A DNA stretch of 38,900 bases, taken from a virus. The DNA lies in IMG/VR virus record IMGVR_UViG_3300030106_003845, positions 1 through 38,900 of that record. The stretch is one strand, 5' to 3'. Every line of letters begins with the position of its first letter. The stretch's first letter is position 1. A program made the position numbers and the translations under genes. Below are positions 26,908 to 32,928 of this stretch, piece after piece. Under the pieces are notes generated by a model. That model made no database searches. It was not told the DNA's origin and saw only the letters and a list, made by a program, of their open reading frames with translations.

Positions 26908-28434
26908 CTACGCCATAAGCTTGTCGCAGATCAGTCTTGCCAGTTGTATTGGATTTTCGCTGACAACGATTGTCTTGAACCACCGTTGCATCGATTTCGC
27001 GTAATCGTTTGCCTTGTTTTTATCACGCAAGCAACATCCGATCAAATCGACTTTACCGCGAAACTTTTCGAAGTCCGTTGTCGAATCAGTTATTGCAGCA
27101 TCAGTGAAGACTATAGCTGTATCCGCATTTTCCATACGAGAGCGATAGCGAACTAAACAAGATTGCATCGCTTCTCTGTTGGGCGATGGTCTCGCCCTTA
27201 GTATTTCCTTGCTGGATACATTGCTCATGTCTCCGATCATATCTTCGGAAGTGAAAACGATATCAACATCCGCGATACCCTTTTCATCCAGTAACCGTAA
27301 AGCGGATACGAACTCGATTCCGCCTAGGAATTGCAACGGGATTGACATAGACCCTGACATATCGACAACAACGAACAACTTTCTTTTCGTTTTCCTTTTG
27401 ACAACGCTAAGAAACGGATTGCCAGAGCCTGTCATTGCAGACTGAATACGAATCCTCGATCCGGTAGATGCTGATCTAGCCCTAGCCAGTCGATGATTAG
27501 CAGCAATGCTTGTCATTGAATTGCAAATACGATCCCTCGTTTTCTTTACGTAGTCTGAAGCTGGACCATCTTTGAACGGCCATAGATCCCAGTCCATGTC
27601 ATTAGGTTTTGAATACGTTCCATTTGGATTGTTGTTCAAGTTGTGACGTTGTACCGAATCCGGATCTTGGATACCACCGATTGAGTCATCGTACCAACCA
27701 ACGTCACCCTTGCGAGTATTGACAGGTTGTATTTGATCCTTGAATACTTCATAGAATTCAAGTGTTAGACTTAATCTAGTTTCGAGATCGATTGCTGCCG
27801 TTAAGGTGAGCATGTCGTAAAACCATTTCAGAACGTAAGTTGTATTCTTTTTGTGGTTACGAAAGGTTACCTCCTTGACGCCATTCCATTTCGGCGCTTG
27901 TTGTCGCCAACTTTTCCAAGTCTTTGCCTCGTTGAATTTCAACGTTAGTAGGTACTGGCAAGGATCGGCTGTATCCGTTGGAATACTACGAAGATAATTC
28001 TTCCAACCAAAACGGTCGCCAGTTCTCTGTTGTTCTTTTGCTTCGATGTAGCAATCTTCAGTCACGTTGAACACGTAGAACGGACAACCTTTATCTTGTA
28101 GTTCCTTTGCCAATACAGAGATCGAGAAGCTGTTGTCCAACGTGTGTCGACCATGCGCGCATTCATGCCAGATTAAACTCTTTATGAATTTGTGCAACTT
28201 GAGACCCTTCTTAGCTGTATCCGGATTTATCATACCGTCGATTTGTTGTCCAACGGCGATCTTGTGCTCGCAGTCAAAGGTCCAACTAGCTGTATCCAGA
28301 TCCTCTACAACCTGAGTTCTGACTCCACAATTTGAATACGAACGAAGCTCTCTGAGCTTGCCTATCTTTTGCTTTGCCGTTTTGTTTCGCCATTCAGAGC
28401 GAATGGCCTTTACGATTTTTGTATGTGATATCAT
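26908..28434 (-). CDS. VWA-domain protein with HExxH metallopeptidase-like N-terminal half
   Basis: The 508-residue protein has two recognisable parts. The N-terminal half holds IWHECAHGRHT, with His90-Glu91-x-x-His94, followed about 30 residues later by NVTEDCYIEAK with Glu126. This is the zinc-site layout of the CobT/DUF2201-like group of metallopeptidase-VWA proteins. The C-terminal half is a von Willebrand A domain: LFVVVDMSGSMS at 353-364 gives the metal-binding Asp-x-Ser-x-Ser (Asp358, Ser360, Ser362), with Asp445 in IVFTDAAITD as the later metal residue. The gene lies 19 bp after a MoxR-like AAA+ ATPase, the usual partner of such proteins in chelatase-like or protein-remodelling pairs. 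Its target is unknown. Confidence 0.8.
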   Translation of the reverse strand: MISHTKIVKAIRSEWRNKTAKQKIGKLRELRSYSNCGVRTQVVEDLDTASWTFDCEHKIAVGQQIDGMINPDTAKKGLKLHKFIKSLIWHECAHGRHTLDNSFSISVLAKELQDKGCPFYVFNVTEDCYIEAKEQQRTGDRFGWKNYLRSIPTDTADPCQYLLTLKFNEAKTWKSWRQQAPKWNGVKEVTFRNHKKNTTYVLKWFYDMLTLTAAIDLETRLSLTLEFYEVFKDQIQPVNTRKGDVGWYDDSIGGIQDPDSVQRHNLNNNPNGTYSKPNDMDWDLWPFKDGPASDYVKKTRDRICNSMTSIAANHRLARARSASTGSRIRIQSAMTGSGNPFLSVVKRKTKRKLFVVVDMSGSMSIPLQFLGGIEFVSALRLLDEKGIADVDIVFTSEDMIGDMSNVSSKEILRARPSPNREAMQSCLVRYRSRMENADTAIVFTDAAITDSTTDFEKFRGKVDLIGCCLRDKNKANDYAKSMQRWFKTIVVSENPIQLARLICDKLMA

Positions 28435-28453
28435 ATCTGTATTTACTTTCTAA

Positions 28454-29797
28454 TTACGCTAATGCTAGTTTAATCTCTTCGACTGCTTGCAAGCTATCTT
28501 GTAACGGATCGCCTGTCCTAGCGTCACTTTCAACAAGCTGATCTTCTAATCCGTCTTGTATCCATTTTCTAATGTCAGCCCAATCATCTGATCCTGACCA
28601 TTCCAATGCGTTGACTAAAGTCCGACAATCAATGGGCGCCTTAACTCTCATTTCATTGTATCGATCACGCGACAGCTTAGCCGCTTCAGCGAATTGGACT
28701 TCGTAGATCGTAACCTTGTACGTATCCGCAATTTGCTTACAGATATTAGCGAAATCATCTAGATCGAATTTGATATTCACTTTATGCCAGCGAGACCAGA
28801 ACGCCTCTGTAATGCTATTAGCACTACGATTGCCAGCGGCAATTATATGCAGGTTCTGAACCTTGCAACGGATCACTTCACAAGCTCCGTTCTTCATATG
28901 CCGAGTCCGAAGTACGTATTCAGGATCTCCTGACGCCTTGTTAGGTTCAAGGAAAGACAGCAAAAATTCCTGAGATACGATAGGCCACCTCAGAACTTCA
29001 TCGAGAAAGAGAAGAACCCTTTTCCCTTTACTTGCTGCTCGTACTGCCTGTGTCAATACACCATCGACAACAGCAAACCCACCGTTGCCATCTGGAACGG
29101 TAGACCCGACAAGTGTAGTTTCTTCGTCAATACTGTCCGAACAGCCATGCTCCAAGTATAGATCGTATGCGTTTCCAAGTTGCCTGATTGAATAACTCTT
29201 CCCGTAGCTAGGCGGACTTGTTACCAAAATCTTGAGACAAGGTCCTTGGTCCGGGTAGTACGGTAGAACCTTTTTTAAGATCACGTTATCACTCGAAGCT
29301 GTTGCAACCTTAGCTCTAGCCATTCTACTAGGAGAACCCTTTAAAGAGTCTCTGAAGGCGTTGTAATCCCTTTGAAGATCCTCTACTTGATCACGAACGG
29401 GAGTCAAAGCATCTTGTATTTCATCTTGTATCTGAGCCGTCGATACAGACTGCGAGCTATTGTCCATTGCTCGTCGAACGATGCTCGCAACTTGCGATGC
29501 AACATCGTTGGCAATGGGATTGCTAGAGGATACTTGTCTCCCCGCTCGATGCTCTTTGTATTCATGAAGCAACTTCTCGCAGACTTCCCTATGCTCAGCA
29601 GAGCTGATCCTTTCAATGGTCTCCAAAGCCAAAGGCAGAGCGATACCGCGAATTTGCGACGCCGTATTCGACGGAAGGTCTCCTAGCTGAACCATTGCTG
29701 GGACTATTGCATGGCGCAACTGATCCGTAGTTGAATTGAAGATACGACCGCGTAAAACGGTAACTACGGTTGACTTGATTGTTTCGATATTTGTCAT
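28454..29797 (-). CDS. MoxR-like AAA+ ATPase
   Basis: The 447-residue product starts with a helical region of about 170 residues, including heptad-like stretches (IQDEIQDALTPVRDQVEDLQ). An AAA+ core follows: Walker A at 194-201 (SPPSYGKS, a degenerate version lacking the usual first Gly), Walker B at 262-267 (LLFLDE), sensor-1 Asn323 in AAGNR, and a candidate arginine finger in FWSRW (336). The segment DEETTLVGSTVPDGNGGFAV and the following VDGVLTQAV match the MoxR/CobS style of hexameric ATPases that work with VWA proteins. The ATG lacks a Shine-Dalgarno site; its leader is AT-rich (AAATAAATACA before ATG). Confidence 0.8.
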   Translation of the reverse strand: MTNIETIKSTVVTVLRGRIFNSTTDQLRHAIVPAMVQLGDLPSNTASQIRGIALPLALETIERISSAEHREVCEKLLHEYKEHRAGRQVSSSNPIANDVASQVASIVRRAMDNSSQSVSTAQIQDEIQDALTPVRDQVEDLQRDYNAFRDSLKGSPSRMARAKVATASSDNVILKKVLPYYPDQGPCLKILVTSPPSYGKSYSIRQLGNAYDLYLEHGCSDSIDEETTLVGSTVPDGNGGFAVVDGVLTQAVRAASKGKRVLLFLDEVLRWPIVSQEFLLSFLEPNKASGDPEYVLRTRHMKNGACEVIRCKVQNLHIIAAGNRSANSITEAFWSRWHKVNIKFDLDDFANICKQIADTYKVTIYEVQFAEAAKLSRDRYNEMRVKAPIDCRTLVNALEWSGSDDWADIRKWIQDGLEDQLVESDARTGDPLQDSLQAVEEIKLALA

Positions 29798-31072: not shown

Positions 31073-31276
31073 GTGAGCGGTAAAGGTGACAGGGACAGAA
31101 CTATTGATAAAGACGCATACAATCAGGGATGGGAGCGCGTTTTTGGGGGAAACATAGATTTGATTCAGGAGGAGACGCCTGAAGACGTGGGTGCGAATCC
31201 CACTTCCTCCACCATTAGAAAAGTGCCGTTTCGTGCTCCGCCAATCAGGCATGGGCTCAGACGAGTAATTGAATGA
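31073..31276 (+). CDS. Small SGKGD-family protein preceding the large terminase
   Basis: GTG at 31073 is preferred to TTG at 31055, with GAGAGGA about ten bases upstream. The first 24 residues, SGKGDRDRTIDKDAYNQGWE and following, resemble a short phage protein family that I recall beginning Ser-Gly-Lys-Gly and ending near Trp-x-x-Ile/Val-Phe-Gly. The remaining 43 residues are unlike that family and are encoded by the tRNA-like element and the DNA after it. The stop overlaps the terminase ATG (ATGA), so the frame as a whole seems used. The unusual overlap of coding sequence and RNA fold is discussed separately. Confidence 0.6.
   Translation: MSGKGDRDRTIDKDAYNQGWERVFGGNIDLIQEETPEDVGANPTSSTIRKVPFRAPPIRHGLRRVIE
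31145..31214 (+). ncRNA. tRNA/tmRNA-TLD-like fold ending in encoded ACCA
   Basis: Bases 31145-31151 (GGGGGAA) pair with 31204-31210 (TTCCTCC) as a seven-pair acceptor stem with one G-T pair. A discriminator A and CCA follow at 31211-31214. Directly inside, GTGGG at 31187-31191 pairs with CCCAC at 31199-31203 around a seven-base loop TGCGAAT, a T-arm of exact tRNA dimensions. TCAGG (31165-31169) pairs with CCTGA (31178-31182) as a third stem. Thirteen unpaired bases replace a D-arm. This matches the tRNA-like domain of tmRNA, not a normal tRNA. All seventeen stem positions pair. Confidence 0.7.
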
Positions 31277-32928
31277 ATTTTACCGAGCATCCTTTCTTAG
31301 AAGCTCCTACGGCTAAAGAAATTGTTTGGCTGTACAACAACGATTTGCCCCTTTTAAAAGAGCTTCATGCCGCTCACGAAAGTCGAATACAATCTTCCTT
31401 AGACGATCCTGTAAGGCATGGCTTTGATCTTCCCGGCTGGGGGCGTATTGAAGAAGGTTTGAAACAGCACAATGAGTGTTTGGCTTTGGGGGGAAACAGA
31501 TCGGGTAAGACTACCGGCTTTGCTAAAATTGTTATGAAAGCTGTAACGGAAAGCAACGATGGTCATGTTGTGTGCTTTAGCCAGAACGAGGACACCTCTA
31601 TCAAGGTGCAGCAGTCCGCTGTCTGGGAGATGATGCCCAAGGAGTTCAAGAAGAAGACTAAAAGCATTGAAGGGTACATCAACTACAGCATGCAAAACGG
31701 GTTTACCGCAAAGAGCTTTATCTTTCCTGATACTCGTACTCGTGTAGATTTTAAGACGTACACCCAGTTTAGCAACAATCAGACAATCTTAGAGGGCTTT
31801 GAATACGGTTTCCCTAATGCTAGTGGGCTAAACATCGGTGCGTGGCTGGACGAGTACCTAGGGGACTCTACGTTAGTAAACACTCTTAGATTTCGTTTAG
31901 CAACACGAGATGCCGTAATGGGCATAGGCTTTACTCCTATTGATGGATACACCCCGTTTATATCCGATTACTTAAAAAACGTAGAAACTTTAGAAACCAA
32001 GAAAGCTCAGTTGCTAAAAAACAAAGAGCTTCCGGTAAGGCAGTACAGCCCGTCAAGGGATGCAGCTGTGGTGTATCTGCACTCTGACGAGAATCCATTT
32101 GGGGGATATGAGCGTATAGCAAAAGACCTTCGCGGAAGACCGGACGAGGAAGTGCTAGTGCGGGCGTACGGAGTACCAGTAAGAAGCATGACTTCTTTGC
32201 TCCCGCTTTTTAACACTGAGGTAAACGTCCTTAAGGATGAGGTCCCAAACAAGTACGGGATGAAGTTCCCTAATGTTTCTGACAAGTCTAGGTACACAGT
32301 ATACCAAGTAGTGGACCCTGCTGGTGCTAGGAACTACGTAGCTATATGGGCTGCTGTAGATGGCAATGACAACGTGTACATCTGCCGGGAGTGGCCTGAC
32401 TGGGACACATACGGCGAGTGGGCTGAGTTCGGGGACCCAAAGTGGAGATACGGTCCTGCTTCTAAAAAGATTGGACTAAACGTACCGGGGTACGTTGAGC
32501 TTTTTGAAGAAATAGAAGACGATCTGGGAGTGCAGGTGTTTGAGCGTATCGGGGATTCTAGATTTTTTGCTAAAGAAAACGAGAATAACGAGGACCTGTT
32601 TATGTCTTTCGAGGAGCACGACATGACATTCGTGCCCTCTGATGGGCGTATAGAGGAAGTTGGGCTTTCTGCTTTAGATGAGTGGTTCAGTTACAACCCA
32701 AACGAGCCCATAGATTCTGCTAATCGACCTAGGTGCTATATTCACGAGAGTTGTCGAAACTTAATCGACAGCCTCATTAACTACAACTCAAAGGGCAAGA
32801 TGGACGAGCCCTTAAAGGACTTCTTTGACGTAATTCGGTACTTGCGAATGGCAAACTCTGGAGAAGGCCCAGTCCATGTAACAGCTCGCGATTTAGCGGT
32901 AACTCGCAGAGCTACGGGAGGATATTGA
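31273..32928 (+). CDS. terL: Terminase large subunit
   Basis: The 551-residue product has an ATPase domain with Walker A at 73-81 (GGNRSGKTT) and Walker B around 188-194 (IGAWLDE, Asp193 and Glu194). A nuclease-like domain begins near 345 with VVDPAGARNYVAIWAAVDGN, where Asp348 would be the first metal ligand. YICREWPDW follows. It packages DNA into the procapsid and cuts the concatemer. Portal and capsid genes follow. It starts at an ATGA overlap and its stop overlaps the next ATG. Confidence 0.9.
   Translation: MNFTEHPFLEAPTAKEIVWLYNNDLPLLKELHAAHESRIQSSLDDPVRHGFDLPGWGRIEEGLKQHNECLALGGNRSGKTTGFAKIVMKAVTESNDGHVVCFSQNEDTSIKVQQSAVWEMMPKEFKKKTKSIEGYINYSMQNGFTAKSFIFPDTRTRVDFKTYTQFSNNQTILEGFEYGFPNASGLNIGAWLDEYLGDSTLVNTLRFRLATRDAVMGIGFTPIDGYTPFISDYLKNVETLETKKAQLLKNKELPVRQYSPSRDAAVVYLHSDENPFGGYERIAKDLRGRPDEEVLVRAYGVPVRSMTSLLPLFNTEVNVLKDEVPNKYGMKFPNVSDKSRYTVYQVVDPAGARNYVAIWAAVDGNDNVYICREWPDWDTYGEWAEFGDPKWRYGPASKKIGLNVPGYVELFEEIEDDLGVQVFERIGDSRFFAKENENNEDLFMSFEEHDMTFVPSDGRIEEVGLSALDEWFSYNPNEPIDSANRPRCYIHESCRNLIDSLINYNSKGKMDEPLKDFFDVIRYLRMANSGEGPVHVTARDLAVTRRATGGY

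Follow-up and report, generated by a model that had tools for sequence, protein, structure and literature searches.

What is a small RNA with the shape of a tRNA acceptor domain doing inside a protein gene, directly before the large terminase gene of a phage? The question is raised by a stretch of viral DNA of 38,900 nucleotides (positions 1 to 38,900 of IMG/VR record IMGVR_UViG_3300030106_003845), referred to here as the window, which comes from a marine-type phage. A preliminary description of the window had pointed to a tmRNA-like element at 31145 to 31214. Its fold, an independent covariance model and homologues in other viral contigs identify this element, on the plus strand, as a mini-tmRNA, namely a tRNA-like domain with a P2 hairpin and no tag reading frame.

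Structurally, the element of 70 nucleotides begins with the acceptor strand GGGGGAA (31145 to 31151), which supplies the G of a G3.U70 pair. It continues with a stemless D region of 12 bases, ACATAGATTTGA (31152 to 31163), containing A18 and G19, where relatives have the tmRNA-type ..AGATTCGA. The P2 strands TTCAGG (31164 to 31169) and CCTGAA (31178 to 31183) form six pairs closing on the eight-base loop AGGAGACG, and are defined by the fold and by two-sided changes in relatives. The linker GAC (31184 to 31186) leads to the five-pair T-arm GTGGG-TGCGAAT-CCCAC (31187 to 31203), whose loop bears G55, and the second acceptor strand TTCCTCC is followed by discriminator A73 and an encoded CCA (31204 to 31214); acceptor and T-arm are both recognizable from the sequence and from relatives. 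The minimum-energy fold (-25.1 kcal/mol, z = -2.2, equalled in 6 of 200 shuffles) is this tmRNA-like layout, and it confirms the seven-pair acceptor, missing D-stem, T-arm with TGCGAAT loop and ACCA end within 70 bases that had first been noticed. The eight-base loop of the further stem also held up, while the counts given for it, five pairs and seventeen paired positions in all, are corrected to six and 18; one of the seven acceptor pairs, at position 3.70, is G.U. When acceptor, T-arm, CCA and P2 were sought jointly in register, a single place in the window matched on either strand, and 60 shuffled windows gave zero matches. Together with the model score of 55.7 bits described below, this bears out the original view that chance is unlikely.

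Common annotation tools perform poorly at this locus. ARAGORN makes no tRNA or tmRNA call in the window. Rfam reports a sub-threshold tRNA at 31145 to 31211 (23.1 bits; gathering score 29) as its sole match in the window, and its tmRNA family gives nothing above threshold on the window copy. A covariance model, R1, was read beside them, having been trained solely on elements of other phages, 19 T55 elements (those with the usual T-loop) of equal D length from unrelated phages. R1 matches 31145 to 31214 exactly and nothing else in the window, with 55.7 bits and E 2.5e-11, the E-values of the tool being rough. The best genuine tRNA reaches 36.8 bits with R1, so that the model separates the element from true tRNAs; a plain tRNA is likewise rejected by the missing D-stem, by the eight-base P2 loop in place of an anticodon arm and by the negative ARAGORN result. 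The Rfam tmRNA family RF00023 matches T55 relatives over model positions 1 to 374 with 57 to 67 bits (gathering score 47). Among G55 relatives, a class B member scores 47.9 bits and the class A relative L025 scores 36.1, and the class A score alone is not decisive, because ordinary tRNA-sized loci reach the mid-40s with RF00023. The window copy is diverged, with TTTGA in the D region where nearly all relatives have TTCGA, and with the G55 T-loop.

The element is almost certainly a tmRNA-derived RNA reduced to its tRNA-like domain (TLD), without coding sequence. The core of the preliminary reading, a tmRNA tRNA-like domain without the mRNA part, is thus upheld by covariation, by the independent model and by the end-to-end RF00023 matches of relatives. 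The phage family shares with bacterial tmRNA the acceptor with G3.U70 and A73, the CCA, the stemless D region with TTCGA, P2, GAC, and a T-arm of 5 bp with a 7-base loop. Bacterial tmRNA, however, has an mRNA-like region, a tag frame and pseudoknots, all of which are missing from the window element with its 8-base P2 loop and its 70 nucleotides. In principle, phage tmRNAs of the TLD-only kind were already known: that of mycobacteriophage DS6A is little more than a tRNA-like domain without a tag frame (PMC4131195, PMC11915505). By its published description, the DS6A molecule is similarly phage-encoded and one-piece; unlike it, the present RNA occurs in unrelated phages, has a G55/A18 core and is nested in frame in a gene upstream of terL. 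A tag-less tRNA-like domain is also found in the coding-sequence-less (CDS-less) mitochondrial tmRNA (RF02544) and in the plastid tmRNA of Mallomonadaceae of about 65 bp (PMC11915505), although the mitochondrial form is usually permuted, whereas the phage RNA is one piece closed by its own P2 hairpin. The two-piece tmRNA of the OM43 phage Melnitz is likewise encoded by marine phages (PMC9004378), but is complete, permuted and tagged, while the window element is neither tagged nor permuted. The 2025 tmRNA database holds 9 'standard, no CDS' entries among 97,179 sequences, DS6A being the sole such phage named (PMC11915505). In open-licence papers we found no account of a broad phage family, of the G55/A18 version or of the nesting in a reading frame.

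The relatives show what is under selection. The exact 28-base 3' end of the element occurs in 27 viral contigs, and the remainder of the fold lies upstream in 27 of 27; looser patterns bring the G55 type (T-loop TGCGANT) to about 36 contigs. P2 is swapped wholesale among them with its pairing kept (TTCAGG/CCTGAA, CGAAAGCA/TGCTTTCG, CATTATCC/GGGTAGTG and GTTTGC/GCAAAC), and one version (L016) is longer by 27 nt. Across 20 distinct G55 sequences, pairing holds in 97.2% of cells, whereas it falls to 88.3% after shuffling and to under 67% with partners slid, and two-sided changes are found at all six P2 pairs. These are compensatory changes of the kind that the preliminary description had proposed to look for in related phages, and they agree with the independent model and the RF00023 matches. 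G55 matches without GGGG (L133 and others) were set aside as acceptor pieces of full permuted tmRNAs, wherever the second piece could be found.

The RNA lies within a small gene on the plus strand (31073 to 31276; 67 aa; start GTG by homology), whose product reads VSGKGDRDRT..GWERVF, then the RNA in frame, then ..PFRAPPIRHGLRRVIE. Its stop overlaps the ATG, at 31273, of the large terminase gene terL (31273 to 32928, plus strand; phrog_2, E 8.8e-13), exactly as the embedding just before the terminase had been described. The small protein is unmatched by tblastn in the phage collection, and PHROGs gave no match for it or for its counterparts in L021 and L028. In phages whose terL is at least 78% identical (class A, drawn from 80 terL relatives), the gene follows the pattern M(S/N)GKGDRxR...(W/Y)xxIF-RNA-IxxxPFxAxPIxHxIxRII, with the RNA in a fixed frame and with RNA lengths of 70, 73 and 97 nt, each 1 modulo 3. 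In many of these relatives an extra small gene separates the RNA-holding gene from terL. The flanks diverge as protein-coding sequence does, with a third-position value of 0.545 versus 0.26 in the C-terminal part. Within the RNA segment there is no third-position excess, and differences mostly change the amino acid. Because the excess is confined to the flanks, codon-position divergence indicates that the segment is selected as RNA and the flanks as protein. The outcome that would have spoken against the element, protein kept and pairing lost, is reversed: the protein of relatives varies in the P2 region and the pairing stays.

Within class A, the RNA is present in 39 of the 43 terL relatives with enough upstream sequence. 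The other phages (L252, L253, L257, L258) have the same small gene without it; the loss is in frame in all four and leaves a remnant of the 5' end in two. No RNA was found in the 29 terL relatives at 73 to 75% identity. The mini-tmRNA is therefore dispensable, given these losses and this clade without it. Given conservation in 39 of 43 relatives, the earlier suggestion that the element is a relic of recombination with a host tmRNA gene is not supported. It is indeed very improbable that integration or homologous recombination left a functionless piece of host ssrA here. Integration into tmRNA genes is common, and a scar could explain why relatives show shuffled flanks to the left and right of the element. 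A scar of this kind, however, would carry only a copied 3' end, whereas the element retains its 5' strand and D region as well as a covarying P2; moreover, the window-type 3' end has 0 matches in the bacterial genome collection. No integrase was found among the window proteins scanned, and an attP in ssrA was rejected on this ground and for want of a match to a host tmRNA 3' end.

Some relatives carry a second RNA in the same gene. In L214 and L216 to L218, a mini-tmRNA without encoded CCA is followed directly by tRNA-Thr(UGU), both being read through in one frame; such tandems within one small protein gene lie at L214:1928-2099 and L216:2277-2421. A separate, HK97-like group (class B: L003, L009, L019, L020, L032, L033) carries its G55 RNA ahead of terS and terL (phrog_309, phrog_9), in a place where no reading frame is conserved. 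As a side observation, the 200 bases upstream of the element at L033:2560-2742 fold unusually well (z -2.6), and this region may perhaps hold another structured RNA ahead of the terminase genes.

The recurrence before terminase genes calls for two explanations to be weighed, both starting from position. In the first, an RNase P or 3' cut before terL would set the ratio or stability of the terminase mRNA, and the released RNA would be a by-product. The G55 form does stand upstream of terminase genes in two unrelated phage types, class A and the HK97-like class B, and tRNA-Thr can occupy the same place in tandem. A cut, however, has no need of G3.U70, the A18-G55 swap or the GAC linker, the operon is kept in phages that lost the RNA, and the wider family described below, with 44 neighbourhood groups, is tied to no single downstream gene; processing in cis as the purpose of the element thus seems improbable. 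In the second, the DNA itself would act as a pac- or cos-like packaging signal near the terminase genes, for which the same position in two phage types speaks. G.U pairs, which are no pair in DNA, are nevertheless kept, P2 varies freely in sequence, the element is missing from several terL relatives and most family members lie elsewhere in the genome, so that this is the least credible of the readings weighed here. The early proposal that the element marks the packaging region therefore fits the two G55 phage groups and fails in the wider family, found in diverse places including tRNA arrays. Packaging signal and integration scar both fit poorly.

This wider family was found with the same layout and the usual T-loop (TTCRANT), which matched 97 viral contigs, 92 of them parsing as one-piece tRNA-like domains of 64 to 97 nt. 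Selection used the acceptor (at least 6 of 7 pairs) and T-stem pairing and left P2 out, and P2 is nonetheless paired in 414 of 426 cells, versus 250 after shuffling, across 47 different 5' hexamers. In the alignment of 19 T55 elements of equal D length, pairing reaches 99.4% of cells, versus 71.5% shuffled and at most 55% slid, with a covariation score of 0.722 versus 0.140. Both G3.U70 and the GAC linker are present in 96 of 96 distinct parsed sequences. Grouped by gene neighbourhood, 72 T55 loci form about 44 unrelated sets, and for 20 of 97 distinct elements a tRNA gene lies within 2 kb, several being 2 to 6 bases away inside large arrays. Cultured phages carry the gene unannotated, namely the Streptomyces phages Shaeky, LuckySocke and BRock and the Stenotrophomonas phage Jojan60; the Shaeky copy lies 5 bases after tRNA-Phe.

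In bacterial genomes (84,980 species), a looser pattern gave 45 matches, of which two are true mini-tmRNAs. One is on a Pseudanabaenaceae MAG contig, in a genome that also has a full tmRNA. The other is on a cyanophage contig of a Prochlorococcus single-cell genome; this contig has the length of a viral contig and an identical element. A cyanophage element taken with its flank is unmatched in the phage collection. Nearly all of the 45 matches are ordinary full tmRNAs with a chance TTCGAC. At four minis (L038, L061, L085, L117), overlapping tmRNA calls by ARAGORN were judged spurious, because the minis have their own paired 5' strand, and BLAST matches in S-CAM1, PaMx31, PHB04 and Tunturi_4 are full permuted tmRNAs rather than minis. 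In Tunturiibacter phage Tunturi_4 (L200, record 43279-44510), a release-factor gene with an RF-1 domain lies just upstream of the permuted tmRNA; its protein of 115 aa is of ArfB-like size, and two ribosome-rescue genes thus adjoin in one phage. In T55 elements of about 82 nt (L042, L043, L060, L069, L080, L088, L117, L132 and others) the P2 loop has a recurring AAARCC..GG. The AAARCC motif, absent from some elements, is possibly complementary to GGTTT in the D region, and this complementarity could form a pseudoknot or second stem.

A further sign of selection lies in the tertiary core. In tRNA, T-loop base 55 contacts D-loop base 18. T55 mini-tmRNAs have GG in the D region in 69 of 71, and G55 mini-tmRNAs have AG in 24 of 24. 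From these paired differences we infer that an A18-G55 contact replaces G18-U55, and therefore that the folded three-dimensional elbow, not the hairpins alone, is under selection. The 3' pattern of a full G55 tmRNA is found in 5 of 385 alphaproteobacterial genomes and in several phages, and in 0 of 369 genomes from the class to which the gammaproteobacterial MAG G002 belongs. These full G55 tmRNAs carry AG wherever the D-loop piece is readable (alphaproteobacterial L208 to L212; phages L133, L142 and L144 to L146; permuted), which hints at a common ancestry of the G55 minis and tmRNA of the alphaproteobacterial type.

What, then, would the RNA do? An RNA with G3.U70, the alanine identity pair, and A73 is a substrate of alanyl-tRNA synthetase. 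SmpB replaces the missing anticodon arm of tmRNA and brings it to stalled ribosomes, and release of the ribosome by tmRNA requires the stop codon of the tag frame. Because the identity elements are present, charging and binding by SmpB and EF-Tu are likely, and as the window copy is diverged (TTTGA, G55 loop), its affinity for SmpB or EF-Tu could differ. We favour, somewhat better than evenly, a decoy function: enzymes of tRNA processing would cut the RNA from the late transcript, and it would then damp host trans-translation or divert it. On this view, the late (packaging and head) message would include the RNA, which would be released as tRNAs are, with RNase P cutting at 31145 and the encoded CCA forming the 3' end. 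G3.U70 and A73 would direct its alanylation, and SmpB and EF-Tu would bind it. Since it lacks a tag frame, it could not complete trans-translation and would therefore compete with the tmRNA of the host, both for SmpB and alanyl-tRNA synthetase and for stalled ribosomes, so that host ribosome rescue would be damped or redirected during infection. Published work on a TLD-only molecule of the DS6A kind reports strong inhibition of E. coli tmRNA, whether or not the molecule is charged, with titration of SmpB as a possible cause (PMC4131195; PMC11915505). The decoy is the best-supported reading because of this inhibition and because release needs the tag stop codon. Against it count the divergence of the window copy, the dispensability of the RNA among terL relatives and its place in a late operon, which is unusual for a factor of host takeover.

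The opposite role is doubtful: alanyl-mini-tmRNA with SmpB would enter stalled ribosomes and clear them through another release step, as a positive rescue factor. The architecture is as in the CDS-less organellar tmRNA of some mitochondria, which is conserved alongside SmpB and believed to assist where mRNAs are incomplete (PMC11915505); full tmRNAs are also kept by phages, and mini-tmRNAs lie within tRNA arrays that support phage translation. The known pathway, however, gives no ribosome release without a stop codon, and the sole tested TLD-only molecule inhibits tmRNA (PMC4131195).

Elsewhere in the window, on the minus strand at 26908 to 29797, a gene for a predicted AAA ATPase of 447 aa, with weak matches to ATPases, adjoins one for an unmatched protein of 508 aa, a gene pair reminiscent of MoxR/VWA pairs.

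A simple pattern has thus yielded over 70 distinct sequences in about 44 unrelated phage neighbourhoods, cultured phages included, of an RNA that common annotation tools miss, and this makes phage interference with ribosome rescue directly testable. The nesting of a tmRNA-type RNA, and of an adjacent tRNA-Thr, in frame is unusual, as one DNA stretch serves as both RNA gene and reading frame. Tentatively, and at a probability well below that of the decoy itself, dedicated tag-less mini-tmRNAs might be anti-rescue RNAs in many kinds of phages. In the window lineage, where the gene around the RNA would be translated, excision by RNase P would cut that message into non-stop mRNA, and one transcript would provide both the stalled ribosomes and the decoy that blocks their rescue. 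If true, this nested scheme would link late gene expression to the control of ribosome rescue.
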